From the NCBI GenBank assembly GCA_963855995.1, contig OY979717.1, positions 34,234,997-34,298,996 of the forward strand: 64,000 bases of DNA, given 5' to 3'. The DNA is from Muricea muricata. Its lineage: Eukaryota > Cnidaria > Anthozoa > Malacalcyonacea > Plexauridae. Below are positions 3,164-26,698 of this stretch, piece by piece (within the stretch, counting starts at the first letter, position 1; each line of letters starts with the position of its first letter). A program made the position numbers and the translations under genes. Under the pieces are notes generated by a model. The model was given only the letters and a program-made list of their open reading frames with translations, made no database searches and was not told the DNA's origin.

Positions 3164-3926
<763 letters not shown>

Positions 3927-5700: not shown

Positions 5701-5704
5701 ATTA

Positions 5705-5970
5705 CAGCATTTGCCCTTCATTGAAAAAGAGTTATGAATAACGTGTATGGTATATTTAATAGCGCGTCTCTAATTGCAATAACACCAATGAAATGTCAAT
5801 TGTGCATAGTGAAGTTCAACACAACGCGTCTGTAATTTATACCATAGTTTGAAGTTCAATTGTGCGATTCAAAGAACAATAGCATGTAGTGAAGAATCGT
5901 TAGTGCGAGTCAAAGAACAATACGGAAAATTCACGTATCATTTGAATAACATTGTATTTGCAAGTGAACG
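5705..5970 (+). repeat. left inverted terminal repeat of the 5705-7553 transposon
   Basis: This arm begins CAGCATTTGCCCTTC and ends near GTATTTGCAAGTGAACG. It pairs with the reverse complement of 7289-7553. Within it, TTCAAAGAACAATAGC and GTCAAAGAACAATA are two near-direct subrepeats that may be transposase-binding sites; that role is inference. Confidence 0.9.
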
Positions 5971-6100
5971 CAACATTAGGGGTATTATCTTACTGTACAA
6001 TATTGATTACATGTACATTCGACCACAGTATTTGCACTCAAGTGTACGTACTGCAATGACACAGTGCCTGGAAAACCCAAACAAACAGTTCATGCTCAGT

Positions 6101-7167
6101 TCACCCTTGAATATGTTCTCTGGCCAGGCATCTTCGCATGTAGGACTGCATCAATCGGAACCAGGCAGCACACTTTTCGACAGTAATGCTACGCAAGTTC
6201 CTCTCAGTAGCTGAGACCAAAACACGCTTGCGATATTCCCCCAGGGGAATTTGAGCATTTCGTGCTGCATTGCTGTCATTCAACTGATTCTGAAACAGAG
6301 GACGTGTGATGTCAGCCTTGATATGGGCTTTCAAACAACTGATAGCTTGCTCAACTGGATTCAAAAATGGAGAGTATAATGGCAAAACTTTAACTTGGGT
6401 ATTTTCCGCAGGAGGAGTAGCTCGACGATGGGCTGGCGCACCGTCGAAAATAAGATAGTGTGTTTCATGCTCATCCAAATGCTCGTTTGTGTTCTCCAGA
6501 AACTCGTTGAAAAGTGCACCTGTCATGCCGCCCGACTGAATCTTGTGATATATCAACCCAAACACTGGAGATATTGCCAAACATATGGTAATGTTCCTTC
6601 CTTTCTGCCCACACACCTGACGGTAAGCTCTGTCTCGTCTTGTTGCGAACGCCCCTGGCTTCTTGATGTCCAAATGTTAAACCCACACTCGTCAATAAAA
6701 ACGGTATGGTTCAGGTTTGCTTCCTCGAGGAGCCAGTGAGCATACTCGTTTCGGCGCTGAATTACATCTGCTCGATTACGGTCGGCTGGAACTGTATGTG
6801 CCAACTTCAGGGTATACAACATTCCGTCTAAATGTTTCGCAACTGTGCAAACGTGAACATGCGGACGGTCCGGGAGTTCCTCTCTTAGTTTTCGATTGAT
6901 AGCTTCCAAAGTCAACATTGGATTCTCTTCGAGAATTGCTTCTAGACACTGCCGCATCTCTGCATTGACTTTCACGTTATTACGCTCGCCACGTGGCCTT
7001 TCATCTACTCTGTTCTCTCGCATAAAGCGTGCTACGATGCCTCTGGCTGTCGAGCGGTTTACACCTAATGGGTCGGCAACAACAAGATAGTCCTGCTCGG
7101 GCTCTTCGAAAGCCCGTACAATGCGTTCTCTGTCTTCTTTTGCAATTCTACGTCGTCTCTCTGCCAT
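6101..7167 (-). pseudogene. DDE transposase of IS630/Tc1/mariner type, one frameshift
   Basis: The protein starts at 7167 with MAERRRRIAKEDRERI, followed by a helix-turn-helix (DPLGVNRSTARGIVARF) and a second helical region with NPMLTLEAINRKL. The catalytic core shows FIDECGFNIW (first Asp), LIFDGAPAHR (second Asp) and LPLYSPFLNPVEQAI (Glu). I count about 30 residues between the second Asp and the Glu, shorter than the DD34 spacing of Tc1. A frame change between 6635 and 6665 splits the reading frame after the first Asp motif, so the copy is inactive as read. Length, about 350 residues if the two frames are counted together, is normal for the superfamily. Confidence 0.85.
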
Positions 7168-7288
7168 GTCGTTTGCTTTGGCTAAATCGTTTAGTACACG
7201 TCTCTTTATATCTTATTATGCATTCCCAGGTGGATCAAACCGTCACAATTCTGCACACATATACAGTACTGTACAATGAAATACACGC

Positions 7289-7553
7289 TCGTTAACTTGA
7301 ACTTACAATGTTATTCAAATGATATGTGAATTTTCCTTATTGTTCTTTGACTCGCACTAACGATTCTTCACTACATGCTATTGTTCTTTGAATCGCACAA
7401 TTGAACTTCAAACTATGGCATAAATTACAGACGTGTTGTATTGAACATGCACAATTGACCTTTCATTGGTGTTATTGCAATTAGGGACGCGCTATTAAAT
7501 ATACCATACACGTTATTCGTCACTCTTTTTCCTTTAAGGAAGGGCAAATGCTG
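7289..7553 (-). repeat. right inverted terminal repeat of the 5705-7553 transposon
   Basis: This arm ends GGGCAAATGCTG at 7553, followed by TA. It is the inverted match of 5705-5970 with a few substitutions and a small indel near TTCCTTTAAGG. The presence of two long matching ends supports the limits given for the element. Confidence 0.9.
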
Positions 7554-7618: not shown

Positions 7619-8425
7619 ATGAGTGAAAGCGAAGCTTCCAAATCGGCATCTGGCGAAGAATCAGAAGATAAATCTCATTTTGAACACAATTTTAATTCCG
7701 TCGAACCTTATGAGAATGACCCAGAAGCTTCTGATGATGGCAGTTCAAGCAATGATTCTTACGAAGATGAAGACAGAATTGCACGTGAGGAACTCGAGAA
7801 AGGTTACGAGGGAATTGTGAATGTCAACTCATGGTATGAAGCTTTTTTAATTGACATGAACTCTGAAGAAACCAGTTTCGCTTCAACAAATCTTTGTGTT
7901 TTTTATTACAGGTCTAAATGTGGCAATTGTCGCACCGAAAATTTGGTTGGGGCACGTGAATTTCGATGTTGTAAAGAACTTTCACCTGTGTTGGCGAAGC
8001 TCGCTTTTGAAGGGCTTGAAGTGAAGTGTATTCGGGAGCATAATGAGTATGATCCACTGACTCACAAAGCAGTTTTGTTAAACGTTGGGCCTTTATTGCG
8101 AGGTAAAGACGGCAAAAAGTATAAACGTCAAGGGAAATCCCGCAACAGTGAAAACGAGTAAGTGATTCTATTTATACAATACAGCATATTCTTATCTTGA
8201 ACGCGTTTTTTTCTTTTCAAAAATTCAGGGGACTACAACTTGAAACATTTTTATTTTAGATTTTGTCGTGCTGTGGCGTATAGATGGCTAATTAGGAACA
8301 AACGAGACTTTTGTCTGATTGGTCAATTTTTCCTAAGGCTTTCACTGATCAATCTCACTTCCGGTTCGGGAAGGCTCGAAAATGCAGACGAAGATTTTAA
8401 AAGACAACAAGGTCAACTAGCCTAA
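7619..8425 (+). CDS. P2X7-type intracellular-domain (zinc-binding) protein, three-exon model
   Basis: A start at 7619 opens a Ser/Glu/Asp-rich N-terminus. I place a 78-base intron at 7834-7911 (GTATGA to TTACAG): removing it gives NSWSKCGNC, matching the W-x-x-C-x-x-C signature of the P2X7 C-terminal domain. The domain continues with EFRCCKE, LAFEGLEVKCIREH and LTHKAVLLNV. The second intron, 8158-8259 (GTAAGT to TTTTAG), leads to an exon reading EFCRAVAYRWLIRN, also typical of the family. The protein has no membrane segment, so it is not a channel; stand-alone copies of this domain are known from cnidarians, often in large families. The last part, from about 8296, lies in a repeat block found twice more in the window, so the true C-terminus may have been replaced. 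Confidence 0.7.
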
Positions 8426-8782
8426 CTAAATGAGCAATCACAGTTCGAACTTATCTTTGTTGCTTCTGAATTTAACGCTGGTAAATGTACGGGTATTTAT
8501 CTTCGACATACTCACTTTTGAGACTTTGGATACAGATTTTAAACGTTTTAATCCCGATCAGTGTGTCAGTCTTAAAAAACACTTCCACACGAATACAACT
8601 ACATTAATACATGATTTGACGTTTGATGTTTCTACCTTCAAAGGGATAATATTAAAACAGCGCTAATTCAAGGTATAGCATTCAAAGACTATACGAGTTG
8701 TCAAGTGGTGAAAGAATTAAGTTACGAAAGCGAATCTAATAAGAAAAGAAGACCTGCTTATCGTGTTCGGTTTCCTTGACAT
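8296..8782 (+). repeat. repeat block RB1, copy 1
   Basis: From about 8296 (GAGACTTTTGTCTGATTGG) to at least 8777 (AGACCTGCTTATCGTG) the sequence matches 63229-64000 closely, apart from a 302-base insertion in the other copy. It begins inside the last exon of the P2X7-type gene. Parts can be read as protein-like, for example ALIQGIAFKDYTS, but frames are interrupted, so I treat it as a degraded mobile or duplicated coding segment of unknown family. Confidence 0.8.
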
Positions 8783-9955
8783 GAACTGGTAAAGAACATG
8801 TATACCACGACATATACCTTCTATTGTGCTCAATTGACAATTTTATATGCATCTGATTAACTCAAAATTTTACTTGCTTAAACTAATAAGGTAAGTCACT
8901 TTGATTATCAATTTTCGTGTAATAACAGTATTTTGTCTGAAAGTTATCGGCTTTTGTTTTCAACATTTATCGTGATAGTAATTCTAGCTTTTTCGTAATG
9001 GAGTCTATTTTGCCAGTTTTTACCCACCACGAATGCAGTGCAAGGTCAACAAAAAAATAAAACTCATTTTAAACAGTAGTTTCACATAAACAACTCAGCC
9101 TGGTAGCCTTTTCCCGTCACACGCTTTCGTTTGTTTACAAGCGGCGAAAAACTCATAAGTTTCAACCTACACATTTCCTCTCCAATTTTTGTTCAGGAGA
9201 AAATTTTAAGAAAACAGTAAAAAGCATATGAACGTATGCTTTACCATTTTCAAGAGCTTGGGATAATAAAAGTTTAGGTAAAAACAAACTTATCTGCAAA
9301 TATTCTGTACCTAAAACATACAAACATTTGTAATTACTAAGCAGTCAAACACTACTTGTAATCTTGTCCTTTCATTAAACCTGAACGACAACCCGCACGA
9401 TTGAAACTATTAAAACTACATGTGGAACAGGCTGCATTGAAAAAATAACTCTAATTACTGAAAAAGGAGTGTATTATTTCAGTGTGTTTAAAGGGAATTC
9501 CCGTCACACGAGCTCGTTACATTAGTCCAGGCATTTTTGTGCGGAGCAACTGAAAAACGAAACAGCCTTCTCGTTTAAATTTAATGTTCAAAACAAAAAG
9601 TAATAACTTTCCAAAGAAATATTGTCATAATGTGAAAACTCACTTCCGAGATAATATATCTTTGAAGTCTAAGCATACAAAGTTTTGAGATGATCAGTTG
9701 TGTATCAAGCCTGGAAATTACCATGGTTGAAGGCTATGTATCTTCTTTGCTTGTTTTTGGCTAGAATATTACACATATAAACAAGGCTTTGTTTTTCCTA
9801 TAATACTAGTTTCCATAACTTTACTTTATAGTCATTCAACTGACCATATATCATTGATATTACTTGCCGAGTTAGCCGTTCTAACCTCCTTTGATTGAAC
9901 ATAAAAATAATAAAACGTGAAGCCTGTTATGAACAATGTATCATTACGTGCATGT
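8783..9955. other. no recognisable feature
   Basis: AT-rich sequence without a long open frame or clear repeat. The only notes are CCCGTCACACG occurring twice, near 9112 and 9500. I see no gene here. Confidence 0.5.
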
Positions 9956-9961
9956 ATATTT

Positions 9962-10236
9962 TCACTGCTCCAGAACGAACGGCATTAAAACTTTGAAATA
10001 CTGCATCAAAATTCCCAAGTTTAACGGCTGCCTAAGATAAACACTTGCTGCACAATTAACGTTGATTTCAGAAAGATCAGAAGCAAATACTATTTGTAAA
10101 CGCTGTTTCAATTGTCGACTAATCGTTTTAAGAACTTTGCCCGCTCCTTCCCGGCTTCCCGAACCGGAAGTAAATTTCATCAAAGAAAACTCTTGAAAGA
10201 GTCGACCAATCAGACAAAAGTCTCCTTTGTTCTAAT
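9962..10236 (-). repeat. repeat block RB1, diverged copy 2
   Basis: On the minus strand this stretch contains ACTTTTGTCTGATTGGTC and ACTTCCGGTTCGGGAAG in the same order and spacing as 8303-8375 and 63238-63302. A 73-residue frame (10183-9962) keeps LTSGSG-like and VYLRQPL stretches that resemble readings of the other two copies in other frames. The conservation of protein-like features in an older copy suggests that the block was once coding. Confidence 0.55.
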
Positions 10237-10339: not shown

Positions 10340-11805
10340 TTAAACGCTCAGAAGAACAATAAAAATATTCACCATATTAGAAATGTGATGACAGTAATCA
10401 CTTTTAATAATTTTTGGTTGGGGGCTAAATAGAAAAATAGTGTATGCATAACTTGGATTAGGTATTAAACTATTTAAGGTATTCATTGTTTGTGCCTGAG
10501 GGAAACAGTATGTTTTGTGGACCCTTGACTGCCAATGTTTCCCTAGGCTAAACCTAAGCATACTGTTTCCAGAGGGACGCAGTCAATAAGCATTTTATTA
10601 TTTAAGTGTCAAAGGAGAAGAAAATTACCACAAATTACCATAAAATGTACATCCAATTACACTTTTTAATAGTTGACCTGCATCTAAGGACGTAAAACCT
10701 CATTAATATCATTAACGGGACGAAAGACACGGAAAATCGCCATTTCTTATTGTCTCTTGCTATATCACCTATATGCAAAATATGGCTAAACTAAACATAG
10801 CAATATTTGATTGGCTATGGCATGAGCTGTCTTATATGCTAACTATGTTGTTCTGAGTTAATCGTTTTGTAATTTGCATGGTCAATACATGGAAATGATT
10901 ATTGTATGAAGAAAGTCATTTTGACGGATAATGCTTGCAACTCGCAGTAATCTAATGACCGATGGGATTTGTGATTAGTCTTCACTATTATAACAGCTAC
11001 ATTTTGTAGACAATTTGTAGGTGAAAAACATACTCTAGCTGCGTGTCTGTCATACATGTGGGCCGGGCCTATTGTACATTTGGTGAAGCATATTTCGCTC
11101 AGCTTTACGAATTAATCTTCGAGGTTGTCTTGGTCTAGCTCTTGGAGGCATCTCTCAAATGATTTGTCTTGCACGCATGGAGTTTCAAAAACTGCAGACT
11201 TTTGATTTGCGTATTAACATTTCAGTCATTGTGCACTTATTATATTCGGGGGATTTCAAAATACATCATATCATCCAAGCTATAGAAATTTCGCGTATTG
11301 TATAACTGACTCATTGTGTTTGATATGCACCTTTCGGACAATTAGTCCTATGAACATTCCTAAACATACAAATTGTTCAATGTGATTGACATTGCGTGTC
11401 ATTATACAGTATTGTGAGTTGTGGTGTTGTTAACTGCCCGCTCTACACTTTTGCAAATGTTTGACGATAATTCTTGAACAATATAATGTAAGGTCTAGTT
11501 TGAAACATGCATTACAGCATTAGGTAGCTAATACTTTAAAAATCATGATCATTTTATTTTGTTCATTTTATCATGATCATACTATTTACGCAACGAGATC
11601 TACATAATTTAGCTAGGTCGCTCGTTTAGCCCTTCTATGCACCTTATTATCACATAGCCTTCATGCAACCAATCAAGTTTGAGTTTTTAACGTATGCACA
11701 TTTGCATAACTGAATATAAGCACGTATACGTCCTTAGATTCAGGTCAACTAATAGAAAACAAAACCTTAGCTCCGTCGACTTGTTATTTGTGGTGCATAA
11801 AGTAC
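10340..11805. other. no gene recognised; one imperfect hairpin
   Basis: The stretch is AT-rich and has no supported gene. At 10493-10585 an imperfect inverted repeat runs from GAGGGAAACAGTATG to CATACTGTTTCCAGAGGG, with loop sequence between. A similar but better-paired hairpin occurs at 49648-49748, so this may be a dispersed foldback family. Confidence 0.5.
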
Positions 11806-11807
11806 TA

Positions 11808-12319
11808 CTACCATTTGCATTCAATCGTTACACCGCGCCGCGAAATGAAAGTTGTTTCGAGTTTTCCAACGCGTGTTATCATTGGACAACTTTACGTTTT
11901 ACATTTCAAACTTCCAATTAGGGGGCGTGAACGTTTACAACCGTCAGCAACCAGCCGAAAATAGCTCGACTGACACGTCAGTTTTATGTTACATGACCAC
12001 GAAGCTGAAATTGTTCAGTTTCGAATTTTGTCGTTCAATATTAATGTATTTGCTTTACAAAGAGATGATTGAATGGTTTTCAAGACAATTTAGTGATAAT
12101 CATTGCAAAAGAACGATTTAATATATACTTGTTTCGTTAGTGGTTGCTATTTATAGCGGTTCGCCGGATATAATTGCAAAAACGGTTGTAAACGTTCACG
12201 CCCCCGTAATTGGAAGTTTGAAATGTAAAACGTGAAGTTGTCCAATGATAACACGCGTTGTAAAACTCGAAACAGCTTTCATTTCGCGGCGCGGCGTAAC
12301 GATTGAATGCAAATGGTAG
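11808..12319. mobile_element. foldback MITE with about 138-bp inverted arms and TA flanks
   Basis: Left arm 11808-11945 starts CTACCATTTGCATTC and ends GTGAACGTTTACAACCG; the right arm 12181-12319 is its reverse complement with few mismatches. The dinucleotide TA flanks both ends (11806-11807, 12320-12321), as expected for a Tc1/mariner-mobilised element. The central 235 bases have no gene. The arms contain the GC-rich core ACCGCGCCGCGAAATG. Confidence 0.85.
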
Positions 12320-12321
12320 TA

Positions 12322-12728
12322 TCCATTATTCCAATGCAATACTAGGGTAACCGTTAAATTTTTTCACTATAATTTCATACACTTTTGACCAACAAGGAAG
12401 ATTATTTGAACCTTGACGCTTAGTATATAATAATTGAACTTAGTATGTAATGTTGAGGTAAGAGCGATCATTCGAGCTGAATGCAAAGTTGATAATTTTT
12501 GTACGACCTTGATTTCAATTCAGCTACCGTTTTATTATATATTGATACTTTGCATTTTATTCAAACAAACTTTTTTGCTTCAACAAATGTTTTTTAGGAG
12601 ATAACTGAATTATTTACTTATAAAATTAATGTTAAGTCCCAGGCTAGAGCATAGCAAGAGGGCTTGATAATAAAATATTTATATGTTCATCTATAATCGT
12701 GTAATTGATTTAACAAAATTGAAGATAA
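12322..12728. other. no recognisable feature
   Basis: AT-rich sequence between the foldback MITE and the last exon of the Kolobok-like gene. It probably includes that gene's 3' untranslated region; no other structure was seen. Confidence 0.4.
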
Positions 12729-12877
12729 TCATTCATTTGCATCACTTGCACATCTCCCTTTAGGATGCCCTTTCATGGGTTTGCCACATGTTTGACATGT
12801 GGGTGCCTTTCTTTTCCCTTTATCTTGTGTGTTCTTTTCTTTCTCTTTCTCCTTCTGTAACACATCCTGAACTTCAT
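12729..12877 (-). pseudogene. Kolobok-like gene exon 8: C-terminal zinc motif
   Basis: A Lys/Glu-rich linker is followed by APTCQTCGKPMKGHPKGRC and a stop at 12729-12731. The C-x-x-C-GKPMKGH-x-x-x-x-C pattern is a compact zinc motif found at the C-termini of many invertebrate transposon proteins. Confidence 0.65.
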
Positions 12878-12949
12878 CTGCAAACATTTTTTGTATTTAA
12901 TGGTTGCACTATAAATTGATATTGCTTAATTAATTGTTTTCAACCTTAC

Positions 12950-13131
12950 CTAGAAGTTCAAGTTCAGTTTGAAGGCTTTTCCGTTTTTCATACTGAGCAA
13001 CTGCATCTGACTTCGGCATTTTATCAGGGAAAATCATGGATCTTGGCATTTCTTTTCGTATTTGTGTTTTGTTTTTCTCAATTCAGCTAGTGATGTAGAG
13101 AAGAGTACATCCGTAATAGCAGATGCATAAT
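12950..13131 (-). pseudogene. Kolobok-like gene exon 7
   Basis: Opens after TTTCAG with a helical segment (SAITDVLFSTSLAELRKN), then PRSMIFPDKMPKSDAVAQ. It ends at 12950 before GTAAGG, splitting an Asp codon with exon 8. No stop or indel was seen in it. Confidence 0.6.
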
Positions 13132-13289
13132 CTGAAATGTAAAATTTCACTTTGTAAATACTGTAAAGTAAATTATTTTGTTTACACTGTCTTTAGAGTA
13201 CATTTCATATCATACAAGTCATGATTTAAAGCATGGTCAAGATGAATCTCAATTTGGTTCTTGGATTAAGCATAGCATTTTGTACTCAC

Positions 13290-13438
13290 TATATGTTGCA
13301 GTCACTGCCACTTCTCTGACCACCTCATCTCTTAACTAATGTTTTGGGTAAGAGACTTTAATATACTTCTGTCCATCTATTCTTTTCATCGTCTCTCTCC
13401 TGACATTTTCATTGAAATGCAAGCATGCCAAGATATGC
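13290..13438 (-). pseudogene. Kolobok-like gene exon 6
   Basis: Reads HILACLHFNENVRRE, then YIKVSYPKH, an in-frame TAG at 13336-13338, and LRDEVVREVAVTATY. Relatives have a similar LHFNEN motif shortly after the catalytic Glu. The donor is GTGAGT at 13289. Confidence 0.65.
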
Positions 13439-13895
13439 CTGTCAAAACAAAAAGTTTTCCAAACATCAATACTGGCAATGCTTTTGAAATATTTTAGTTG
13501 CCTTAACATCTAACACCAATCTCACACACAAAAGTTCCGCTGTGCAGCAAAGTACCTCTTCACTTAGAATTGGTTATTATAATAACATAAGGTGACATTT
13601 ACTTGTAAATTTTTTTTGACATCTTTTTCTGAAGAGTCCTTCATAAACAAGCTTCATTATAACACAGATGCCCCTGCTCATACAATACCAGAGGAATTTA
13701 GCAGTGAGTTGATGGAAGGTGTTACATGATCTGAATAAACCTAGTAGGTTTGCAAATATTGTTACATAAATACAAGTTTTGAAGTTGTACTGTAGTTGTA
13801 CCTACTTTTTAATCAGATCATATGACCAGGTTCTATCAAGGTTTTCACTTGGTAAAAATGTGAACCCTGGGTATTGATTATTGGATGATAGTTAC

Positions 13896-14066
13896 CTGCA
13901 GTAAGTTCCCATCCACCAAAAGCATAACATTTTCGGATGCCACTGGTTCAATGTCGAGTGAAACCCTCCCAAACAGCTGGTTTGCTCATGTGGGGAGAGT
14001 CGACGTATCTCATTAACCAAAGACTTCTTTAAGAGGATCAGCTGTAATTTATCATAAGCCTTGTTC
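13896..14066 (-). pseudogene. Kolobok-like gene exon 5: catalytic Glu segment, Glu lost
   Basis: Reads AYDKLQLILLKKSLVNEI, RRLSPHEQTSCLGGFHSTL and HPKMLCFWWMG. Relatives that I remember have a Glu in the SSLE-x-FH motif; here the codon at 13967-13969 encodes Gly, so the third catalytic acid appears missing. The exon ends at 13896 before GTAACT and joins in phase to exon 6. Confidence 0.65.
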
Positions 14067-14177
14067 CTAAAAAGGGGGGAACATCGAACAAAAATATTAC
14101 TTTTTTATCAAATTATCATAAATTATGAAACCATGCACACAAATAATTTTGGCCAATATATTCTATTAAAGACATAC

Positions 14178-14616
14178 CAACTTTGATATACTTCTTCTTA
14201 CTTATTTCTCCATGTGCACAGTTTTTGAATAAGGGGTCATCATGATCATTGTGTTTGTGTGAAATGTGCCTTATAAGGGATTTCCATTTTGCAACAATCA
14301 TGTCATTAAATCCCTCCTTTGTTGACGTTGCACACCAATACATGTGCTTACTTATTGCTTTGATCCACTTTGATATGCGTTCACAATCCTTTTCTTTGCT
14401 TGCTTTTAACAGTTTCTTTGCATTTGACCGGTCAAAATGCCAGTGATCAAAGTAATATTTCACCGCTTTTTGAAGCTCAGCGAACCACTTAGCAATCCCA
14501 CGGTGACGATCAGAAACAAAGGTTGTGACACGTTGACCAGCTGCAACTAGAAAACCAAAACCACGCTGGCAACCTTCAAATTCCATTTTGGTACTGCTGC
14601 CTTCTGTTTCATTTGC
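14178..14616 (-). pseudogene. Kolobok-like gene exon 4: second catalytic Asp and D-x-x-H motif
   Basis: The exon opens after a TTTTCAG acceptor with ANETEGSSTKMEFEG, then TTFVSDRHRGIAKWF (second acid), YYFDHWHF (the D-x-x-H motif seen in Kolobok, MULE, P and hAT relatives), KDCERISKWIKAISKHMYW and VAKWKSLIRHI. It is uninterrupted over its length. It ends at 14178 before GTATGT, but the phase does not fit exon 5. Confidence 0.75.
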
Positions 14617-15023
14617 CTGAAAATAATCAATTATCAAACCCTATAAATTTGCATTACAGAAGTGAAACCACTTTCAGGTGCATTCAGAGAAATTAGGGAG
14701 CCCAGGGCAAAAATCGTTTGTAGAGCCCTTCCTCCATGGACATACTTTACTCGATTTTCTTTTTATTTTATTGCTTCATTGTTTTTTGAGAGGCCTTTAG
14801 CCTCTGGCCCAAAGCAAATTACCACTTTTTCACCCTCTAAATGTCCCTGACCACTATAATGCCTGATTCCAGCATAAATCTGCCAATGTTATGCAATTTT
14901 TCACACACATGTTTTACATTCACTCTGAGAATTCCTATCCTTTTCTCAAAAATAGAATTTGCACAAATTCCACAATATACTAGCTGAAAGTTAGCAATCT
15001 TTAATCTATAATTTTCTACTTAC

Positions 15024-15559
15024 TTGCAATAGCTCAAAGTGCCCAATCTTGAGTGCTGTACAATTCATGAAAGTATGTGCGCAATACTTGGCACTATGAC
15101 CCATGGAATCGAATCGGCCATCGCCACCAAATGTCACTTTCTTTCCACTTATTAAGGAGGGCCTGTTGATATGATTCCCAATAACGAGCAATACTTGATA
15201 GTAGCAGATCTGACTTATGTCGAAAGAATGTCCTGATGCTATACAAAGACAATCCCATGTGTTTGAAAACCAACAAAACTTTAGTTATTGATGCACCCGA
15301 AACAAGAATGGAAAAGCTAAGAAGGATATTACCAGCAGGGAATTTTGTGAGAATGAGGGGCTGGGAACTCCACTTGAATCAACTGTGACAATGCAAGCAT
15401 TCCTGCTGAACAGACAGACCTGTACCATTTTTCTTCATATTGACCTGGTGTTTATCTGCTTTGCAAGTGAAGCAGAACATAGAGAACAATGCCAGAAGGT
15501 TAAAATAGAACACAATGAGCTTTGGTTCTACTTTAGACGAGGAGGATACTGGAGCCCAT
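15024..15559 (-). pseudogene. Kolobok-like gene exon 3: start of catalytic region
   Basis: In order: EPKLIVFYFNLLALF, a CFTC motif, then in another frame ECLHCHS, a TGA at 15379-15381, WSSQPL, PAGNILLSFSILVSGAS, VFKHMGLSLYSIRTFFRH and, after a second frame change near 15140, GGDGRFDSMGHSAKYC. The Asp of GDGR is the presumed first catalytic acid. The exon ends at 15024 (LLQ) before GTAAGT and joins in phase to exon 4. Confidence 0.75.
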
Positions 15560-15748
15560 CTATGAAAATATAATATTGGAAGTTTATATATAGTTTAAAA
15601 GCCAGTTGTTTGCCCTTTTAGCAGTATTGGACATACCAACAGGATATGACATTTTGGAATGTAACTTTTTGCCAATTCTCCAAATTTAGCTGTTAAAGTA
15701 GGCATACCTGCCCCCCTCTGGGTGAAACCACTCACTGGTGTGTGCATT

Positions 15749-16199
15749 ATTAAAGTGTTTATGAAACGAAATTTTCTCCCCCAATTTTTTTATTGCATTA
15801 GAAAGATCAGTTAAAATTACAGTATAACTTCTTTGATAGAATTTTTATAACTGCCTTACTTTTCGAGATATTCAATTTTATTTCATTTGAAAATAACACA
15901 ACCAGTGACGTCATTGTGCATAATCACTTTTTAAAAAAGCTGCATTAATTAAAAAAGTACTCAAGATACAACTCTTAAATACAGAGGCCTGGATGTTAAA
16001 AATAGCTTACATACGTGTAAGTGTAGTTTTAGTCATTTTTCATCATTATATGTTACAAAATAAGCAATCTAACAGTCATCATTACACATTATGACGTCGG
16101 TGGTTGTGTTATTTGCATATCCTATAAAGTTAAATATCTTGACTGGGAACGGAGTTACAAAAATTCGACCAAAGAAGTTATATTGTTATTTTATCTGAT
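15749..16199. mobile_element. foldback MITE in Kolobok-like intron, right end truncated
   Basis: Left arm 15749-15930 and right arm 16080-16199 are imperfect inverted repeats; for instance ATAACACAACCAGTGACG pairs with CGTCGGTGGTTGTGTTAT. The left end, TTAAAGTGTTTATGAAACG, has no partner at 16199, where the element stops abruptly, but its partner is present in the solo arm at 18849-18992. TTAA at the outer end hints at a Kolobok or piggyBac-type family. Confidence 0.7.
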
Positions 16200-18465
16200 G
16201 TACGGCCGAGTATGTCTGAAGACAAAATATAGTGCTTTCCGTCCAATTCAGTTTTCCTCCGATTATATACAGAACACTATGAATAGCATTCGCGTATAAG
16301 ACAAGGGTCAAGACAAAGGTTACAGTTTCACAATCTTTCAAATCCTAACCAAGCAGAGGCATGGACCAAGCTAAAAGAAAATTGGGAACACAACGAACGA
16401 TCAAGATTTGTGGGTTCTCAAAGAAAAGGTACAACCTACAATCAATGCCAAAACACTTTGGACAAAATATCAAATAACACTACACTGCTGTATATTTGAC
16501 CCCCCGTGCCCCCCTTTCAATGTTGAAGCGAAAAAGTATGACACAAAATGTTGTATACAAAACCAACAACATTGTTTAGGGTGAGGGGAGGCATGGAGCT
16601 GCTTTATCTAAGCAACTCTCTAAAAATCGTGTTACTTGTAGGTTGAGAAGCAACTGTCCAAAACAGTTTTGTCACTGATTGTAGCGTTGTAGGGAAGGAT
16701 TTGACGTTGGAGTCGATATGTGCGAGTGGAATCTGTCTTCGGCGAATCTCCTGTATATATTCGTCTCATTTGTATTATATGCCGGTAAAGTATTGTCTTG
16801 CCAATTCACCGAGTACCGCGATTAGTCAAAGTTTATGGGTAACAACTGGAACAACATTGAAACACCGCCGGGAAGAGTTGCTGAGCACTTGGCTGAATCC
16901 ACATTAGCTATCAACATATTATCATATTGCGCGCAAGTTATATTATGGTATCGTAAGTATTCCGTTCTATTCAAACTTCTAGTGCACATTTCGATGAAAA
17001 ATCTAACCAAAATGCATAAAGTTTCTCATTTGTGATAAAACTCAGGCATAAAGCTTACTTAAATAATCTGATATATTCGACTTATACTTTACTGTGAATT
17101 TGACATTTGATTCGGCAAAGATGATGACGTTCAAAGTTCAAGTGTTTATATCAACGTCACATTTGTATTAGAATACATTGAAAGCCTTTTCCATGGATAT
17201 TTGTCGTCATATGTATGGTTCAATATTGATTTGAATTTTAATGCTTAATACAAGTCTTGATTTTTCTGCGCCAAGATTAATCATAAACCAAATATAAATG
17301 TAATTTTCATCAGAAGATTCAGCACTGTTATTATGTGAATCTACATACGCAAATAGTTTTGAATTTGGCCTAGGGTAATTCTAAACTGGGATTTTACTGC
17401 CAGTTAGAAAAATGCTTCATTTTCTCGAAAACCTGGGGAATTGCCTGGTCTATATGACCATGTACTTTATACTTTGTTTGCCAAAGTTAATGTTAATCCT
17501 GTCTTTCTGCATTTTGAGCTCAATTTTAATCAATAATTCATTGAAATTAAATTTGTTCATATTTGCTTCACACAAAACACTACACACTAAATTTGTTGAC
17601 GGCCCCCATAGTTGGGGAGAGAGAGCTATTTGGTATATCTGATACAGCTTGTTACCCATTTATACCACCATGCATTATATGTGGTCACAATCAATGTAAT
17701 TAAAACTGGCAACTTGTCAATTGCAACACAGCTCCTATAAGATAAATAGCATGTTTGCCTAATAGTACTGCTATGTTTTCCAAGTTATACTAATTGATGA
17801 CCAAGGCCAATTGATTTTTGCAAAATAGCAATTATCTTGTTGCAACGGCAATATTCAATCAAATCAGTATTATCAATATTATCAGTGCAATTTAAAACTA
17901 CATTACAACTATGTGAATTATTGCACTGAAACTTTTCTTTCTAAAATTCTTAGCAACATGATATGAAAGACAACTGGAAAATAATCTGCGTTTGGTTTTT
18001 GCCTAACCAATGACTAGATTTTAAACGATTAAAAAATGCAATCATGAAGAAATAAGACATGCAGGGATGGTCAGCTCTGTTTCCTGTATTATCAATGGCT
18101 TAATCATCAAGCTGTAATATAGAAGCTTTGTGGGGAAGCTGCTGGTAGTTGTCTCGGCCCCATTCAGGTTTCCTGTATTGCAGGTTTTTCCTGACCTCCC
18201 TGACAATCCAGCTGTAATAAAAGCAATGGTAACGCTCAGACGGCTAGTTTTTCCATCACCTGGCAAAGCAGTTTCTATTTCATTACAGCTATTGCAATTT
18301 TAATAAAACACCAAAAAATCTGGTCCAACATTCCGGGGGAAGCTTTTTCGTCTATGGGGAATGCGCATGCTGCGCATTTGTGGGGATGGAGTGCTCCCAA
18401 AGGTCACCCTCAACCCCATAGACTCACATAAAACAATGTAATATATATATTTTATTGTAATTAAT
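16200..18465. other. no recognisable feature (intronic)
   Basis: AT-rich sequence lying in the long intron between exons 2 and 3 of the Kolobok-like gene. Open frames here are short and show no domain that I recognise. Confidence 0.4.
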
Positions 18466-18662
18466 TATGGGGATTCACTTCCCCTTGCATGTTTAAAGTA
18501 AACAATGCCCATCACGGGGATCTACTACCCCTTGGATATTAAAGTTAACAATGACCATCACGGCGATCTACTACCCCTTGGACATTGAGAGTGCCCATCT
18601 TGGGGAGCTACTACCCCTTGGGCAAAGTCCAACACGGGGGAGCCATTACCCCCTGAGGACAC
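18466..18662. repeat. imperfect tandem array of GGGGATCTACTACCCC hairpin units
   Basis: About five units of 28-50 bases share the core GGGGAKCTACTACCCCTTGG separated by AT-richer spacers that shorten along the array. Each core is self-complementary at its ends (GGGG with CCCC). The array sits in the long intron of the Kolobok-like gene. Confidence 0.75.
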
Positions 18663-18848
18663 AGCTATATCATGATCATAATGCATAATCATAATTGTGA
18701 GTCTGTGGGGGGGGGCAATTTGACCACAGTTTATAATTATATAAGAATTGGAGCATTTCTCCCCCATCAACCCTTCTCCCACAACATTGTGTGTGTGTCA
18801 TAGTGGTTTCTTAATTGTCTCCGAATATTTTCCTGACGATTGGTGCAT

Positions 18849-18992
18849 TAACTATAAAGTTAAATATCTTGACTGGGAACGGAGTTACAAAAATTCGACC
18901 AAAGAAGTTATATTGTTATTTTATCTGATCTTCCCAATACAACCATCAAAATGTTGGACAAAATTTCGTTTCATAAACACTTTATTATATAT
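18849..18992 (+). repeat. solo arm of the 15749-16199 MITE family
   Basis: 18849-18929 matches 16119-16199 almost exactly, starting ACTATAAAGTTAAATATC and ending TTATTTTATCTGAT. It then continues to CGTTTCATAAACACTTTA, the outer end missing from the first copy's right side. It is therefore a single arm of the same family and shows what the truncated end should look like. Confidence 0.8.
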
Positions 18993-19090
18993 ATTATTGA
19001 TAATAAAGTAATAAACTCACGGCTCACGCAGTAATTTATGTTCCACTCGAGGTCCTATGTGCTGTTATTTTATCAGTTAAGGATACTAAC

Positions 19091-19401
19091 CTTATCTCAG
19101 TGCGGCTTTCATGTTCCTCATTTTCACTTTGTGATAGGATTTCACTTAACTCGGATGTTTCTGCCTTGGGATTAAAAGATGTCTGTGGTGGTGCGCTGTC
19201 ATCAGTCCTGATTTTGCTGCTGTGTTCACTTTCGTCATGACTGCTGCTATCGTCTGAAGGTTCTTCAGACATAACTGAAGCAGGTTTTCGTCCCACCGAG
19301 GGCCTGACTGCCTTCTGACGCAAACGCGAACACTTCTTTTGCAGTGCAACAACCTTTGCCTTCAACGTCACGCACGAATTGCAAATTGCACTCTCTTCAC
19401 T
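19091..19401 (-). pseudogene. Kolobok-like gene exon 2, downstream half
   Basis: From the second copy of the 9-base duplication the frame continues SAICNSCVTLKAKV, a short coiled coil (VALQKKCSRLRQKA) and a Ser/Glu-rich tail, ending at 19091 before GTTAGT. The splice leaves AG, which combines with the A at 15559 of the next exon. This segment would link the DNA-binding THAP domain to the catalytic core. Confidence 0.65.
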
Positions 19402-19605
19402 GAGATAATCTAATCTTCGCGCCTCGCGCCTTTTCTTCGCGCCTCGCGCCTTTTCTTCGCGCCTCGCGCCTTTTCTTCGCGCCTCGCGCCTTTTTTTCGC
19501 GCCTTACTTTTCATGCTTTTTTTTTCGTGCCTATTTTCTGCCGCTTTTCCCGCGCCTTATTCCCCGCCTCGCGTTTTTTCGCTAAAAGTTCATTAAATTA
19601 TTCTT
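19402..19605 (+). repeat. left MULE terminal repeat with 20-bp GCGCC tandem repeat
   Basis: After the GAGATA end come four near-perfect copies of a 20-base unit (CTTCGCGCCTCGCGCCTTTT), then degenerate GCGCCTT-type blocks and TTCGCTAAAAGTTCATTAAA. It is GC-rich against AT-rich surroundings. Confidence 0.85.
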
Positions 19606-19984
19606 AAAAATTACCATTATCATCTTTTAATGTATAGGGAGAAAGAAACTTGCTAAACAAGTGACTCGATCTACTGATATTCATTAACTGGAACGATAAC
19701 TCCGCAATAAAGCCGTTTTTTCACTGGCAAATTTTTGTCGTGCAAATCTTCTATCTTATAAGCTCTCAACTAGGACAAATTAGATTCTCAATTAATAGTT
19801 CATTTCAATTTGAGTAGAATCGTACACATGTCACATCGCGCGAAAATAATCGCCAGCAAAAAATCGGCTAATGAATACTGTGTATTACTTATGAGTACTG
19901 TCCAATGTCATATGTCATTAGTCAAATGTCTGAAAATAACATAGAATAGATAAGTACAAAATTAGGGGGGGGGGGGAGCTACCG

Positions 19985-21443
19985 TTGATTAATTGAAGTC
20001 TGATTATGAACAGTTATATGATTATTTTGTTTCAAATAATTTGCTATCCGATCGTCAATTTGGTTTTAGACAGTTTCACTCCACAGCATCAACCCTTTTA
20101 GATAGCACAAATGAGTGGCTTAGTTAATATGGAGCGTGGTAAAATTAATATTGCAGTATTTCTAGACTTACAAAAAGCTTTTGATACGATAAATCACGAT
20201 ATTCTTTAAAGAAACTTGAAAGGTATGGCATGGGATCACCAGTGTTGAATCTTTTAAGAAATTATTTAACAGACAGAACTTGGATGTGCTCAGTAAATGG
20301 CGTATTGTCCTGTTCAAAAACAGTTGCGTGTGCTGTTCCTCAAGGCTCGATTCTTGGTCCACTTCTATTCTTAATTTATATAAACGATTTACCAGGTAGT
20401 TTGGAGTTTTCGTCTGCAAGAATGTTTGCTGATGATACTACATTAACTGCCTCTGGTGAATCAGTTCTAGTCCTGAGGTGGCCATCAATCATGACCTTGC
20501 AAATATCAAACAATGGCTCTCAGCAAATAAATTATCACTAAATCTTGTCAAAACTAAGTATTTATTGATCGGATCAAGGCATAACATAAATAACTTATTT
20601 CATGCTCCCAAAGTGCATGTTGGTGACATGCCAATCAAAAGGGTGAAAGAAACAAAGGCACTTGGGGCCTATATTGATGAATATTTATCTTGGAATAAGC
20701 ACATTGAAATATTTCGAAAAAATCTCATCCGGCATCGAGGCGGTCAGGAAACTAAAGCCTCATGTTGATCATAATATGTTAATATGTGCTTACAATGCAC
20801 TAGTTTTACCTCACTTCGATTATTGTTGTGAAGTTTGGGACACTATTAATTCTACACTTTGCAATCGCTTGCAGAAATTACAAAATAGGGCTGCTAGAAT
20901 AATCGTGGGCCGTATAAACGAACATGGACAGTCTGAACTTGCTCTGGCTGAATTCAACTGGAAGACCTTAAGTGAAAGAAGGGCTCAGTTTGTTGCAAGC
21001 CAGATGTATAAAATAACCCACGATCCAGCACCCAAACGATTATCCAATATTTTTCATGAAACGCCTTCCTCTCGGCATTACAATCTGAGAGGTTCTTCCA
21101 CTAAACTTTGTTTGCCCCAACCTAAGACTGATTATCTAAAAAAGAGTTTTAGTTATATAGAGGGGAAAAACTGTGGAACAGCCTCTCAGATGATATACGA
21201 AGTAAAGAATCACTTGTTGCCTTTAAAACCAGCATTCGTGCACTTGGCCAATTTCTTGAAATTTTTTAATCTATTTATGAGTAATTCCAAATATTCCATG
21301 TAGTAACGTACTGTCTGTATGTTGTAATTGCTTAATATTTTTAATATATGTATGTAATATGATTTTTAAACTACGCCCCTCTTGGAAATCAGCTCTTGCT
21401 GAATGGTTTTAAGGAATAAAGTTTTACCTACCTACCTACCTTC
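19985..21443 (+). mobile_element. LINE, 5' truncated, with (ACCT)n tail, inside the MULE
   Basis: ORF2 fragments on the plus strand show DRQFGFRQFHSTASTLL, a degraded motif A, AVPQGSILGPLLFLIYIN, MFADDTTLT (intact FADD near 20421), HFDYCCEVWD and LCLPQPKTDYLKKSFSY. Frame changes occur near 20215, 20480 and 20720. The 3' end is GGAATAAAGTTTT followed by ACCT units, a tetranucleotide tail typical of CR1/L2-like LINEs. It differs from the family at 3927 and 26183 in tail and sequence. It begins shortly after a run of 13 G. Confidence 0.8.
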
Positions 21444-21554
21444 TGATTAGTTGAACTCAAACTATAGTTGGTTGAGTTAAACACGGGTTTATATGAATTA
21501 AAATTCACTGACGGGCTAATCTTATATGCCCAAAGTGAACGTCAGTAAGTGGTA

Positions 21555-21742
21555 GTAAATAATTTAATGAACTTTTAGTGAAAAGGACGCGAAGCGGGAA
21601 AAAAGGCACGAGAAAAACGGCAGAAAAAAGGCACGAAAAAAAAAGCATGAAAAAAGGCATGAAAAAAAGGCGCGAGAAAAAGGCGCAAAAAAAGGCGCGA
21701 GGCGCGAAGAAAAGGCGCGAGGCGCGAAAATTAGACTATCTC
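21555..21742 (-). repeat. right MULE terminal repeat
   Basis: The inverted match of 19402-19605: TTTAATGAACTTTTAGTG, degenerate AAAAAGGCRCGA blocks, two GGCGCGAGGCGCGAA copies and ATTAGACTATCTC at the end. It has fewer perfect 20-base units than the left arm, so the arms have evolved by unequal repeat change. Confidence 0.85.
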
Positions 21743-21922
21743 CTCTTCACTTGCTTCGGTTTCAGTCGCCACAGTTGCTATTTCGATTGTCTCCTCAGGC
21801 ATATCGGTAGTTTCTTCAAGGTCTTCGCTTATTTCCTGTTTTTCAGTTGTACCAACAATAGCAGCGACTTTTGTCTTTTCCGATGCTGATGGTGCCATTT
21901 TGCTTTGGATCTCACACATCGT
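21743..21922 (-). pseudogene. Kolobok-like gene exon 2, upstream half
   Basis: An acidic Ser/Thr/Glu-rich segment (MAPSASEKTKV to TEASEE) open on the minus strand. The acceptor is probably the AG at 21924-21923 after a pyrimidine-rich run, joining in phase to exon 1. It ends in AGT GAA GAG, which is the 9-base sequence duplicated by the MULE insertion; the other half of the exon resumes in the same frame at 19401. Confidence 0.65.
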
Positions 21923-22077
21923 CTATGATGTTAAATTTGAGAGAAACATTATTCAGAATTACGCCGGAAAATATTTAAAATAGCGGAAAATATGTAAACG
22001 CGCACACTAGGCGAGAACAGTTACTTTAGTCTTAAACTAAAATTTATAAATACTGTGTAAAAGTTGTAAGCCCTTAC

Positions 22078-22500
22078 TTGTCTGTGACTGCGTTCAGAAA
22101 CTGATACATTTTGCTCGGGTTCGTTTGCGGCATGTATAGTTGGTATGGAACCTTTCTCTAGCCGTCTCTTTGATTTAGCGAATGAACTTGATCCAGACTC
22201 ACCTTTGAGGTCGGCCAAACTGAACATTCGATTAAAACATTGCGCTTCAAAATGAATTGAGCAAAGGGCAGAATATCAAGTAGGCTGGAAATGCGGACGG
22301 TGTCGCCAAACAAAATCTACCCATTTTTTCCTGGTTTCTTTATCTGAGGGAAATGCATGCATCGATATCCCTTCGGTTGAGGTTGAATTCTTGCAGCTTT
22401 GCTGATTTGGGCCACCAGCAACACCATAAAACCCACCAGACTTTGCCGAAGCGCCTTTTTTTCGTAAAGATACGCTGTTTATAACTATAACCATAGACAA
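22078..22500 (-). pseudogene. Kolobok-like gene exon 1: THAP domain
   Basis: A start near 22494-22500 leads into KKGASAKSGGF and then the THAP core: SCKNSTSTEGISMHAFP, RKKWVDFVWRHR, LCSIHFEAQCF and EKGSIPTIH, giving the C2CH order. The first zinc Cys is replaced by Gly (Y-G-V-A). An in-frame TGA at 22276-22278 precedes the LCSIHF part. The exon ends at 22078 before GTAAGG. THAP domains bind specific DNA, here expected to be the element's own ends. Confidence 0.75.
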
Positions 22501-22632
22501 TCAACAGAATGGACTGGAAACGCAAGCTAAAGTATCAATGTTGCTGACGCGACATCCGTGATACGGCCTGATATGCTATACTTTGGAACCCTGTAACTTC
22601 ACTTTAAATATACTTCAGGACTTTCTATTTAC
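22491..22632 (+). repeat. left arm of a palindrome split by a LINE
   Basis: ATAGACAATC, AATGGACTGGAAACGCAAGC, GCGACATCCGTGATACG and TACTTTGGAACCCTGTAACT recur inverted at 26368-26541. The arm also overlaps the presumed 5' untranslated region of the Kolobok-like gene. It stops at 22632, where the LINE begins, and its continuation (TTTTAAACAAGAA) resumes at 26183 after the LINE. Confidence 0.75.
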
Positions 22633-23126
22633 ATATTGCTGGCGACTCAATGGTGAAACATCTAAATGGATATAAAATGTCAGCACGGAATATGAAGATT
22701 CAAGTATCAACATTTCCCGGCTGTTCTACACTAGATGTGGGAGATTACTTAAAACCAATTATTCGGAAAAAACCCGATAAATTAGTAATCCATGTTGGGA
22801 CAAATAGCCTTAGAGAATCAGAAACGCCTGGAAAGTGTGCAAGTGAAATTGCTAATTTGGCAAAACAAGTAATTGATGCCTGTCCCTAAACAGCAGTAGC
22901 GTTATCGAGTATAATAAATCGATCAGATGATATGGTCCTAGCAGCAAAAGCTATTGAAGTGAACTTGCATTTGAAACAGGCATGTCATCAAAATCACTGG
23001 TCTTTTATTGATCACTCGAACATTAAACAGACTCATCTAAACCGAAGTGGAATTCACCTGAATAAAGCAGGTACATCATTAATGGCTCGCAATTTCACTA
23101 ACAGTATTTTCAATAGAAATAGGTAG
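22633..23126 (+). pseudogene. LINE ORF1 C-terminal SGNH-hydrolase (esterase) domain
   Basis: The first codons read AGDSMVKHLNGYKM, with the GDS nucleophile motif; then FPGCSTLDVGDYLKP and KLVIHVGTNSLRES (the GTN block of the SGNH fold) and, after a TAA at 22887, IHLNKAGTSLMARNF with the catalytic His region. Such esterase domains are known in ORF1 of CR1-group LINEs. The N-terminal coiled-coil half is absent here but present in the copy at 26699-28224. Confidence 0.75.
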
Positions 23127-23192
23127 GACATTGCCAGTGAGGAGTCGATAGCTGCCGTTGTTTGGCGGGAAGATCGTGAGAAAGTTGGTGAG

Positions 23193-26073
23193 TTGAATAA
23201 TTCTATTTGTCAACTAAATAGATCATCTTTCCGTCGAGGAATTGTAGTTGCTTGTCTTAACATTAATAGTCTTGTAGCTCATATTGACGAACTTAGAGTA
23301 ATTTTAGATAGCACTGAAATTGATATACTGTGTATTAATGAGACAAAACTCGACGAAACTATTAGCGATCATGAGGTCTGTTTACCGGGTTTTGATATTG
23401 TTAGGAGGGATCGGAGTGTAAATGGTAGACACGGAGGTGGAGTTTGTATTTACATTCAGTCTAGTCTAAACTATAAACTACGCAACGATTTACAATCGCA
23501 CATTCTCGAAAATTTGATTGTGGAAATTATTAAACCACGTTCAAAGTCTATATACTAGTGAGTACCTGGTACAGGCCTCCTGATTTTTCAGCACATTTTT
23601 TTGTCGAGTTTGAAAAAATGGTAGGGTCTCTCGATGCCGAAAATTTAGAATTCTTTATGCTGGGAGATTTAAATGTTAATTTAAATCAATCGATGGAGTC
23701 ATCTAACAAAAATACGCTAAACGAAATATTTGATATTTATGGCTTAGACCAATTAATCCAGGAACCAACTAGAGTCACTGAATCATCTAGTAGTTTAATT
23801 GATCTTTGCCTTACGAATAGTTTAACTACTGTAGTTGACTCCGGTGTTATACACCTTTTGATTAGTGATCACTCACTAATTTATGTAGTGCGGAAAGCCC
23901 ATTATGTTCAAACTGATGCTAAAATTATAGAGGCAAGAACCATGAGAAACTTCAATAGTGAGAACTTCTTAAATGATTTAAATCAGCAACCATGGGCAGA
24001 GGTCTGCCATAATGCTGCAGACCCAAGTAAAATGTGGCAAATTTGGAAGTCTCTATTAATGGAAACTATTGATAAGCATGCACCCATAAGGATTAAGAGG
24101 GTTGGAAAAAAGAATTCTCCCTGGGTTACTGGCGAGTTAAGGCGCCTACTATTTGAGAGAGATTCTCTAAAAAGGAGAGCTGTAAAATCTGGAGACGCTA
24201 GCCTATGGCATCAATATAAACAATTTAGAAATTGCGCTAATAATGAAATAAAAAGAGCAAAGCGACTTTACTTTACAAATAATCTGGAGCTACACAAACA
24301 TGACATGAAAAAGACGTGGAAATTGATAAATGATTTAAATTCACGACATTACAGAACTAGTTCGTGTATTAAGGAAGTTATAAAAGATGATCAAATAGTT
24401 AATTCGCCAAATCAATTGGCCGAAACATTCAATACTTATTTTTCAAATGTCGGTAGTAATCTCTCTGATGAAATACCCAGTTCTGCAGATTCTAATCCGG
24501 AAGATTATCTCGACCCAACTGATGGAACATTTTCCTTACAATTTCCATCAGTTAATACAGTGACAAGATTATTAAAGACAATCGATGAAAAAAAATCAGC
24601 CGGTCTGGACAACATCCCTAATAAGCTTTTAAAAATAGCCGCAGAAGTCGTAGCACCCTCGCTAACTAAAATATTCATCCAGTCCATAATTACTGGAATA
24701 TTCCCCGAGGAATGGAAGGAAGCGAGGGTGTCTCCCTTATATAAAAGTGGCGCAAAAAATGATCCAAGCAACTACCGCCCAATATCGGTCATTCCAACTG
24801 TTTCAAAAATTTACGAGAAAATAATTTACGACCAACTGTATGACTACCTCAATACGTACAATTTGCTGACTCATTGTCAATCTGGATTTAGATCATTCCA
24901 CAGCACATTAACAGCATTACTTGAAGCGACAAATGACTGGTCGGTTAATATAGATAATGGAATGTTGAATGGGGTGGTCTTTATCGATCTGAAAAAAGCT
25001 TTTGACACGATAGATCACGAAATTCTTCTTTTAAAGCTAAGCAACTACGGGGTTGACTCGACTTGCTTAAAATTGTTTGAATCATACTTAACGAATAGAA
25101 GTCAAAAATGTAAAGTAAATGGCGAGCTTTCAAATTCATCCCCGTTAACTTGCGGCATTCCCCAGGGTAGCAGCTTGGGGCCGTTGCTATTCCTTATCTA
25201 TATTAACGACTTACCGAACTGTCTGGATATGGCTAAGCCTAGAATGTTCGCGGACGATACAAGTGTAAGCTATGCTTCTGATTCTTTAGACGAAATTCAA
25301 AATGTCATTAATTCTGAATTAAAAAACCTAAATAGTTGGCTAATAGCTAATAGGCTCAGTTTAAACATAACCAAAACAGATTTTTTGATAATAGGATCAC
25401 GACAAAGAATGAATGCTACACAGAATGACATAGCTATTAGAATACGCGATCGTGAAATAAATAGGGCTGACGTTGTGAAATCTTTAGGCATGCATATTGA
25501 TAGGCATCTTTCGTGGTCAGAGCATATTCATAAGATTTCAAAAAAAATTTCATCCGCTATTGGCGCGCTTAAAAGAGCCAGACCATTTATTTCATGCAAA
25601 ACAGCAGTTCAGGTATATACTGCTTTAATACAGCCTCACTTTGACTACTGCTGCTCGGTCTGGGACGAATTGGGAGGTACACTTGCGACAAAATTACAAA
25701 AGTTACAAAACCGAGCGGCTCGGGTCATTACGAGGTCTAGTTATGATGCTGATGCTGACGCTTTACTAACTCTCCTACAATTGGATAATCTCTCTATACG
25801 TCGCAAAAAATTAAAGCGCAATTAATGTTCAAAATACTTAAAGGCAATGCGCCTTCATATCTGAGATCTCTCTTTTCAGTTCGCACTTTGGAGTATGATG
25901 TTAGAAATAATCAATCTAAATTGCATATTCCAAAACCACGAACAAATTATTTGAAGCGAAGTATATGTTACAGTGGGGCATTACTGTGGAATAACTTACC
26001 CCAGGAAATACGAAATCTTCCAAATCTGTCACAGTTTAAAAGGGCTACAAATGATTGTTATGTTGATACATAA
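23193..26073 (+). pseudogene. LINE ORF2: APE endonuclease and reverse transcriptase, two frameshifts
   Basis: The endonuclease runs from CLNINSLVAHIDELR and CINETKLDE (catalytic Glu) through GLDQLIQEPTR and SDHSLIYVVRK (near 23865). A frame change at about 23555 splits it. The reverse transcriptase has NYRPISVIPTVSKIYEK, SGFRSFHSTLTAL, FIDLKKAFDTIDHE (motif A), GIPQGSSLGPLLFLIY (motif B) and MFADDTSVS (motif C, 25240-25266), then HFDYCCSVWDELGG. A second frame change near 25822 separates the last 80 residues (YSGALLWNNLPQEI). All catalytic residues I can see are present. Confidence 0.9.
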
Positions 26074-26182
26074 AATATTGACTTTCTCACGGCAATCTTG
26101 TAAATCAGTTTACTTTTTTATATTTTAATGTTTGTAATACTGAAGATTTTACCGTGGATAAATAAATTGAAAAAAAAAAAAT

Positions 26183-26541
26183 TTTAAACAAGAACGGCAA
26201 TCTCTATGGAACTATCGACTTTTAAAATTCTTTATGGATATAACAAAGCTAAAACCCAACGCTGAATGTTTGCATTCTTTTTGACTGCAGAAATGTCGCC
26301 ACTGTTGTTGTTGAAAAAGGTTTACGGAAACATTAAATGGTGATTTTCCGCCTCGTTTATCTCTCTGAAAAGTTTTAAAAGTCGATAGTGTCATTCACAT
26401 TTCTATTCTTGTTTAAAATATGTAAATACGAAGTCCTGAAATGTATTTAAATGGGAGTTACAGGGTTCCAAAGTAAAGCGTATCACGGATGTCGCGTAAA
26501 ATTTAGCTTGCGTTTCCAGTCCATTCCTTAGATTGTCTATG
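26183..26541 (-). repeat. remaining left-arm end, centre and right arm of the split palindrome
   Basis: 26183-26225 continues the left arm (TTTTAAACAAGAA, ACTATCGACTTTTAAAA); 26226-26367 is the unpaired centre; 26368-26541 is the right arm. Without the LINE this would be a foldback of roughly 500 bases with arms near 180. No clear target duplication was identified at its outer ends. Confidence 0.7.
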
Positions 26542-26698
26542 CTATAACACACCTGTGAAGTGAAATTTGATTCCGAGTTATGACGTCAGAACGAAAACAT
26601 GGCCGCGTGCGACAAAATTCGCACAAAATAGTGAGATATTTTTGCTCGTATCATCAACACAAAACAAAACTACGGTAAACTAGTAGCAAAAATAAATT

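Follow-up and report, generated by a model that had tools for sequence, protein, structure and literature searches.

Kolobok transposases are described by a THAP domain, a DDE catalytic core and an H2CH zinc finger, and TTAA targets and AG termini are given for their elements (PMC6004289). The Kol0 lineage is characterized by a DxxH motif, 5'-RR ends and an accessory protein, KolX, which is reported to have a ballast fold and is proposed as the source of the P2X7 C-terminus; the H2CH finger between DxxH and E is said to be absent from MuDR, P and hAT, and piggyBac is described as using TTAA but ending otherwise than in 5'-RR..YY-3' (PMC9587614). In Xenopus, THAP-bearing Kolobok transposases are reported to have been domesticated (PMC6004289).

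The locus described here lies in a stretch of 64,000 nucleotides of Muricea muricata DNA (contig OY979717.1, positions 34,234,997 to 34,298,996), referred to as the window. The feature under study, at window positions 26,682 to 5,679, is almost certainly one decayed copy of a Kolobok DNA transposon with two genes and a full length of 6.2 kb; 6,023 bp of this span are Kolobok sequence and 14,981 bp are later inserts. An earlier note, made from the sequence alone, had placed its transposase between 22,500 and 12,729 (9.8 kb) and thus underestimated the extent by more than half.

The element resembles the Kol0 type, as described in PMC9587614, in its DxxH motif, the zinc finger before the last E, TTAA, 5'-RR ends and a KolX resembling the P2X7 ballast. 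It differs from that description in that its transposase is encoded by eight exons and bears a CxxC(x6)H(x4)C motif at the C-terminus. With the Xenopus XKol elements it shares THAP, H2CH, DDE, AG termini and TTAA; full-length XKol elements measure 6.8-13.9 kb (Table 5) and their transposases are given by the longest open reading frame (ORF), about 2.1-2.6 kb among the rows listed, whereas the window gene has eight exons (PMC6004289). No intron-rich Kolobok lineage was found in literature searches, whose scope did not include Repbase, and no claim of being unpublished is made.

Structure of the transposase gene

Eight transposase exons were observed in order on the minus strand of the window:

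22078..22473, minus strand, exon E1: THAP domain; without start codon, first Cys lost, one stop
19091..21922, minus strand, exon E2: interrupted by insert 1
21922-21743 and 19401-19091, minus strand, coding parts of exon E2: the parts overlap by the insert 1 target duplication
15024..15559, minus strand, exon E3: carries the first catalytic D (GGDGR), with a stop and a frame change
14178..14616, minus strand, exon E4: second catalytic D (SDRH), DxxH (FDHWH) and H2CH zinc finger; open
13896..14066, minus strand, exon E5: third catalytic position, Gly; one frame change
13290..13438, minus strand, exon E6: one stop
12950..13131, minus strand, exon E7: one frame change
12729..12877, minus strand, exon E8: C-terminal CxxC(x6)H(x4)C motif and stop codon

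Exon E1 matched the Pfam THAP domain (PF05485) with E 6.7e-11 and 43.2 bits against a cut-off of 23.9. With the exons in order, this match and the sister copies described below, the eight-exon minus-strand THAP/Kolobok-like transposase proposed in the earlier note was confirmed. The motifs GGDGRFDS, SDRH and FDHWH and the terminal CQTCGKPMKGH were all found in the window exons, in transposase order as claimed. All seven exon junctions are GT..AG, and their phases, derived by hand as 0,2,0,1,2,1,1, are compatible throughout, so that the compatibility noted before holds and its count, six of seven junctions, was one too low. In the three close copies 41 of the 42 splice sites are kept, the sole change being one donor in copy L047. 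The large gaps between the exons might suggest that unrelated open frames had been strung together by chance, but in sister copies these exons follow one another in the same order over some 4.2 kb, free of the inserts, and this reading deserves no credence.

Sister copies and wider family in the genome

Genome searches were run in the 453-Mb assembly, in which introns and animal-type transposons are present. A search with exon E4 gave at least 153 matches (150 of 568 candidates were scored); besides the window, those listed include two at 88% protein identity and one locus in two pieces (78% and 68%), the remainder ranging from 31% to 56%. Scored matches to THAP and to exon E4 numbered at least 150 in each case, and among them are relatives with a single exon whose open frames reach up to 695 amino acids. 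The element DNA of copy L039 recovered four family copies (40 of 981 candidates scored): those at C1:45.05 Mb and C10:4.92 Mb across all 6,209 positions, a partial one at C1:51.57 Mb, and the window copy, split into seven pieces, to which the block comparison added an eighth, 26 bp long. A short repeat at L039 element positions ~4,670-5,030 (window ~12430-10400) also matches about 30 other genomic places at 68-83% and accounts for nearly all non-family rows of this search; it is common to all full family copies and was therefore in the element before the copies spread. The window copy is thus a member of a low-copy family of the published Kolobok superfamily.

The close copies are L039, L041 and a third locus represented by L040 and, over a longer stretch, by L047. 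Their DNA identity with the window is 91-96% in long blocks and 96-100% in the shortest blocks, and one unlinked locus is 94.6% identical to it across 3,482 columns, which speaks against chance. L039 and L047 align mutually without break over 6.2 kb.

Five long distant loci (L042-L046) all carry E1, E3, E4, E5, E6 and E8 in the same order at 37-76% protein identity, and E7 was matched in three of them (28-42%). All seven THAP columns (C2CH and P/W/F) are kept in the three close copies and the five long distant loci. Catalytic columns were compared in 27 short loci, which include these five and do not reach E1. The first catalytic column is D in 25, N in one and uncovered in one; the second D is kept in all 27; DxxH shows D in 26 and H in 26; and the H2CH zinc columns show H in 27, H in 26, C in 27 and H in 27. 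The third catalytic Glu is present in 23 of the 27, the other four being uncovered, and in all three close copies. DxxH and H2CH are intact in two of the three close copies, L041 having a stop at D and W for the zinc C.

Extent and termini

The alignment of sister copies divides the window copy into the following blocks, which fall within element positions 47 to 6,018 of 6,209:

26682-26542, 22491-21743, 19401-18982, 15753-12308, 11807-11750, 10672-10232, 8295-7554 and 5704-5679, minus strand: Kolobok blocks in the window
26542..26682, minus strand: Kolobok 5' non-coding end, element positions 47-187 of 6,209
5679..5704, minus strand: final 26 bp still recognisable on the 3' side of the Kolobok (element positions 5993-6018)

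The first 46 element positions, including the terminal repeat, are unrecognisable in the window copy, and about 191 positions, again including the terminal repeat, are gone from its 3' side. No inverted repeats above threshold were found between 8,000-12,900 and 21,800-28,000, the flanks of the interval given in the earlier note; the element's 3' end falls beyond the stretches compared, and neither terminal repeat survives.

Termini were observed directly in the sister copies. L039 has TTAA on both sides and AG..CT termini; it starts AGTGCCTATGACATGAAATTT and ends with the complement, with one mismatch in 21. L047 has TTAA on the 3' side only. In all five long distant loci the best TTAA-flanked ends are of the AGTG..YATGAAA type with AG at both ends, and the pairs match at 14, 14, 16, 16 and 16 of 16 positions; the next-best pairs listed reach 8-10 of 16, except for one internal pair of 14 in L045. 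Membership of piggyBac was also considered, and the AG..CT termini of L039 and the AG termini of the distant loci do not agree with it.

P elements also carry a THAP domain, and a transposon of the P-element/THAP9 type was considered for that reason. They make 8-bp target duplications, and what was found instead is TTAA with AG termini in L039 and the five distant loci. The window gene also has a KolX partner and an H2CH finger between DxxH and E, the latter described as absent from P in PMC9587614. A P-element/THAP9 identity has hardly any probability beside these observations.

The KolX gene

A second gene lies on the strand opposite the transposase and converges on it:

7619..8161, plus strand, KolX exon 1 (ballast-type accessory protein): 180-amino-acid open frame, stop included, running past the presumed splice site

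In sister copies KolX exon 2 (CRAVAYRWL...) follows; in the window it is cut by insert 5. The exon junction was set by eye. KolX matches were found in 12 of 47 loci examined (11 distinct places, L040 and L047 being one), and a convergent KolX is present in all five long distant loci, most short loci ending before its expected place. The joined exons 1 and 2 aligned with the cytoplasmic ballast of P2X7 (Pfam P2RX7_C) at E 0.014 over profile positions 84-182, below the cut-off, and four KolX relatives gave E 0.0023, 0.76, 0.0068 and 0.016; here KolX lies outside any receptor gene. Exon 1 alone had no ballast match in Pfam or PDB, PDB giving just a TRAPPC3 chain (E 0.41). By sequence, the window frame and the distant loci appear to possess the KolX accessory of the Kol0 lineage.

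Decay of the window copy

Lesions were scored against the three close copies (L039, L047 and L041). Private to the window copy are a stop in each of E1, E3 and E6, a frame change in each of E3, E5 and E7, the loss of the first THAP Cys, and a third catalytic position that reads Gly instead of Glu. The earlier note had listed these lesions correctly except for the frame changes, of which there are three and not two. The start codon of L039 is absent at the same place in the window copy, L047 and L041. Each of the latter two and L039 carries its own stops or frame changes, and no unbroken copy was seen in the four-copy family, so that the search for intact relatives suggested in the note gave none among the close copies.

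Substitutions were counted by codon position at 1,998 aligned coding sites, which cover E1, E2, E4, E6 and E8 in full and the greater part of E3; frame changes led to the exclusion of E5, E7 and the end of E3. Private substitutions at positions 1/2/3 number 32/19/16 in the window copy, 6/7/5 in L039, 7/12/17 in L047 and 21/16/20 in L041. The window copy thus shows no sign of protein-level constraint, there being no third-position excess among its private substitutions, which argues against domestication.

A domesticated, still functional THAP host gene, with introns enlarged by transposon insertion, would agree with the multi-exon structure and intact splice sites and has a precedent in the Xenopus domestication of THAP-bearing Kolobok transposases reported in PMC6004289. 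Three private stops, three private frame changes, the lost third catalytic residue, the missing start codon and private changes without third-position excess speak against it, as do inserts inside exon E2 and KolX exon 2. Unless a shorter product is made, these lesions leave the host-gene explanation very improbable. Comparison with the three sister copies shows, at sequence level, decay in place of the transposon through point lesions and nested insertions, as had been proposed; which of the two came first in each case would be a matter of deduction.

Seven inserts

Seven inserts were observed between the Kolobok blocks; they are given without strand:

22492..26541, insert A: 4,050 bp, inverted repeats, GTTATAG on both sides
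19402..21742, insert 1: 2,341 bp with inverted repeats and a 9-bp target duplication, AGTGAAGAG; within E2
15754..18981, insert 2: 3,228 bp in intron 2; ends AGTGTTTATGAAACGA, TTAA on the low side
11808..12307, insert 3: roughly 500 bp, its boundaries known to within about 11 bp; long inverted repeats at a TA target
10673..11749, insert 4: 1,077 bp, 22-bp inverted repeats
8296..10231, insert 5: 1,936 bp with inverted repeats and an 8-bp target duplication, CTAATTAG; interrupts KolX exon 2
5705..7553, insert 6: 1,849 bp with inverted repeats of about 250 bp and a TA target

Each has inverted repeats starting at, or at most one base from, its ends, with scores of 20-211, whereas the best score in 50 shuffles of each insert was 12-18 (insert 3 was taken as 11808-12318 in this test). 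L039 is continuous through all seven insert sites and L040 through six. Target duplications are clear for inserts A, 1, 3, 5 and 6 (TA in 3 and 6) and less certain for 2 and 4. The nested insertions pictured earlier between 12,729 and 22,500 are therefore real, but that picture missed that E2 itself is split and overlooked KolX at 7,619-8,161.

The empty site of insert 2 in L039 contains TTAA, and its end type is the same as that of the five long distant loci; it is likely a non-autonomous Kolobok inside the second intron of a Kolobok, judging from these ends. Insert A carries a nested long interspersed nuclear element (LINE), with endonuclease/reverse transcriptase frames at 23193-25825 on the plus strand (RVT_1, E 5.8e-31); a copy of its low end without the nested LINE is apparently present in L039. 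The frames of insert 1 resemble LINE reverse transcriptase fragments by eye, and its frame 20662-21300 had no Pfam match. The transposase of insert 6 lies in two overlapping frames, of which 6101-6670 matched Pfam DDE_3 (E 7.5e-12, fragment).

Insertion site

One minus-strand LINE was observed on both sides of the window Kolobok copy, at 26698-28127 and 3900-5674. Its first ORF has a weak GDSL-lipase match and its second a reverse transcriptase match. Three other LINE copies match the window (97%) as far down as 26,698, at which point it reads CACTTAAAT; two of them resume at 5,674 (95-96%) and the third, L061, at 4,746. A TTAA at 26704-26707 stands just outside the Kolobok 5' end, at the point where the LINE around it stops. 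The LINE was also searched for a clean empty site, and none was found, because about 1.4 kb of LINE is gone on the 3' side. The most economical interpretation, as yet unproven, is that the Kolobok inserted at this TTAA and that one deletion then removed its last ~191 positions together with 1.4 kb of LINE.

Assignment to the Kolobok superfamily

The assignment is based on the THAP domain, the D-D-DxxH-H2CH-E order, the TTAA target, the AG termini and the KolX partner. These superfamily features could be examined in the window copy or in sister copies and, as far as sequence comparison goes, support it. Several points weigh against it. The exon model was read from DNA alone, no Pfam transposase family was matched by E3-E8, and E2 had no reliable match in the five long distant loci. 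Kolobok membership was judged from published feature descriptions, and all P2RX7_C scores of KolX are under the curated cut-off. In the window copy the terminal repeats gave no matches allowing up to three mismatches; with both repeats lost, only the 5' TTAA remains of the duplication. About 1.42 kb of LINE, measured in two LINE copies, is missing from the window between the two LINE matches.

The complete Kolobok element would have carried the eight-exon THAP/DDE transposase on one strand and the convergent KolX on the other, bounded by short inverted repeats at TTAA. By analogy with the known superfamily, the THAP domain would bind DNA and the RNase-H-type DDE core would excise the element and join it at TTAA. 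The window copy, which appears to have inserted into a LINE, is unable to act because the third catalytic Glu, the start, the frames and both ends are lost and seven transposons have inserted. As a dead transposon of a known superfamily it is ordinary, although its history can be read unusually well, and its mechanism holds nothing new. It represents a clear example of the death of a two-gene DNA transposon, in which nesting gives a relative order of events and no dates in years, and a gene spread across 21 kb was recoverable from raw sequence reading. It also adds a multi-exon family with KolX to the elements from which, as proposed in PMC9587614, the P2X7 ballast was derived. A speculative extension, which we consider rather unlikely, is that the family constitutes a Kol0 sublineage, so far undescribed, with multiple introns, a zinc-knuckle-like motif at the C-terminus and convergent KolX, whose same-ended non-autonomous elements (insert 2) enter and help silence autonomous relatives.

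Other observations

The whole window gave no Rfam matches at the gathering threshold and no tRNA matches. Positions 3164-3926 contain about 191 perfect TCAA copies.

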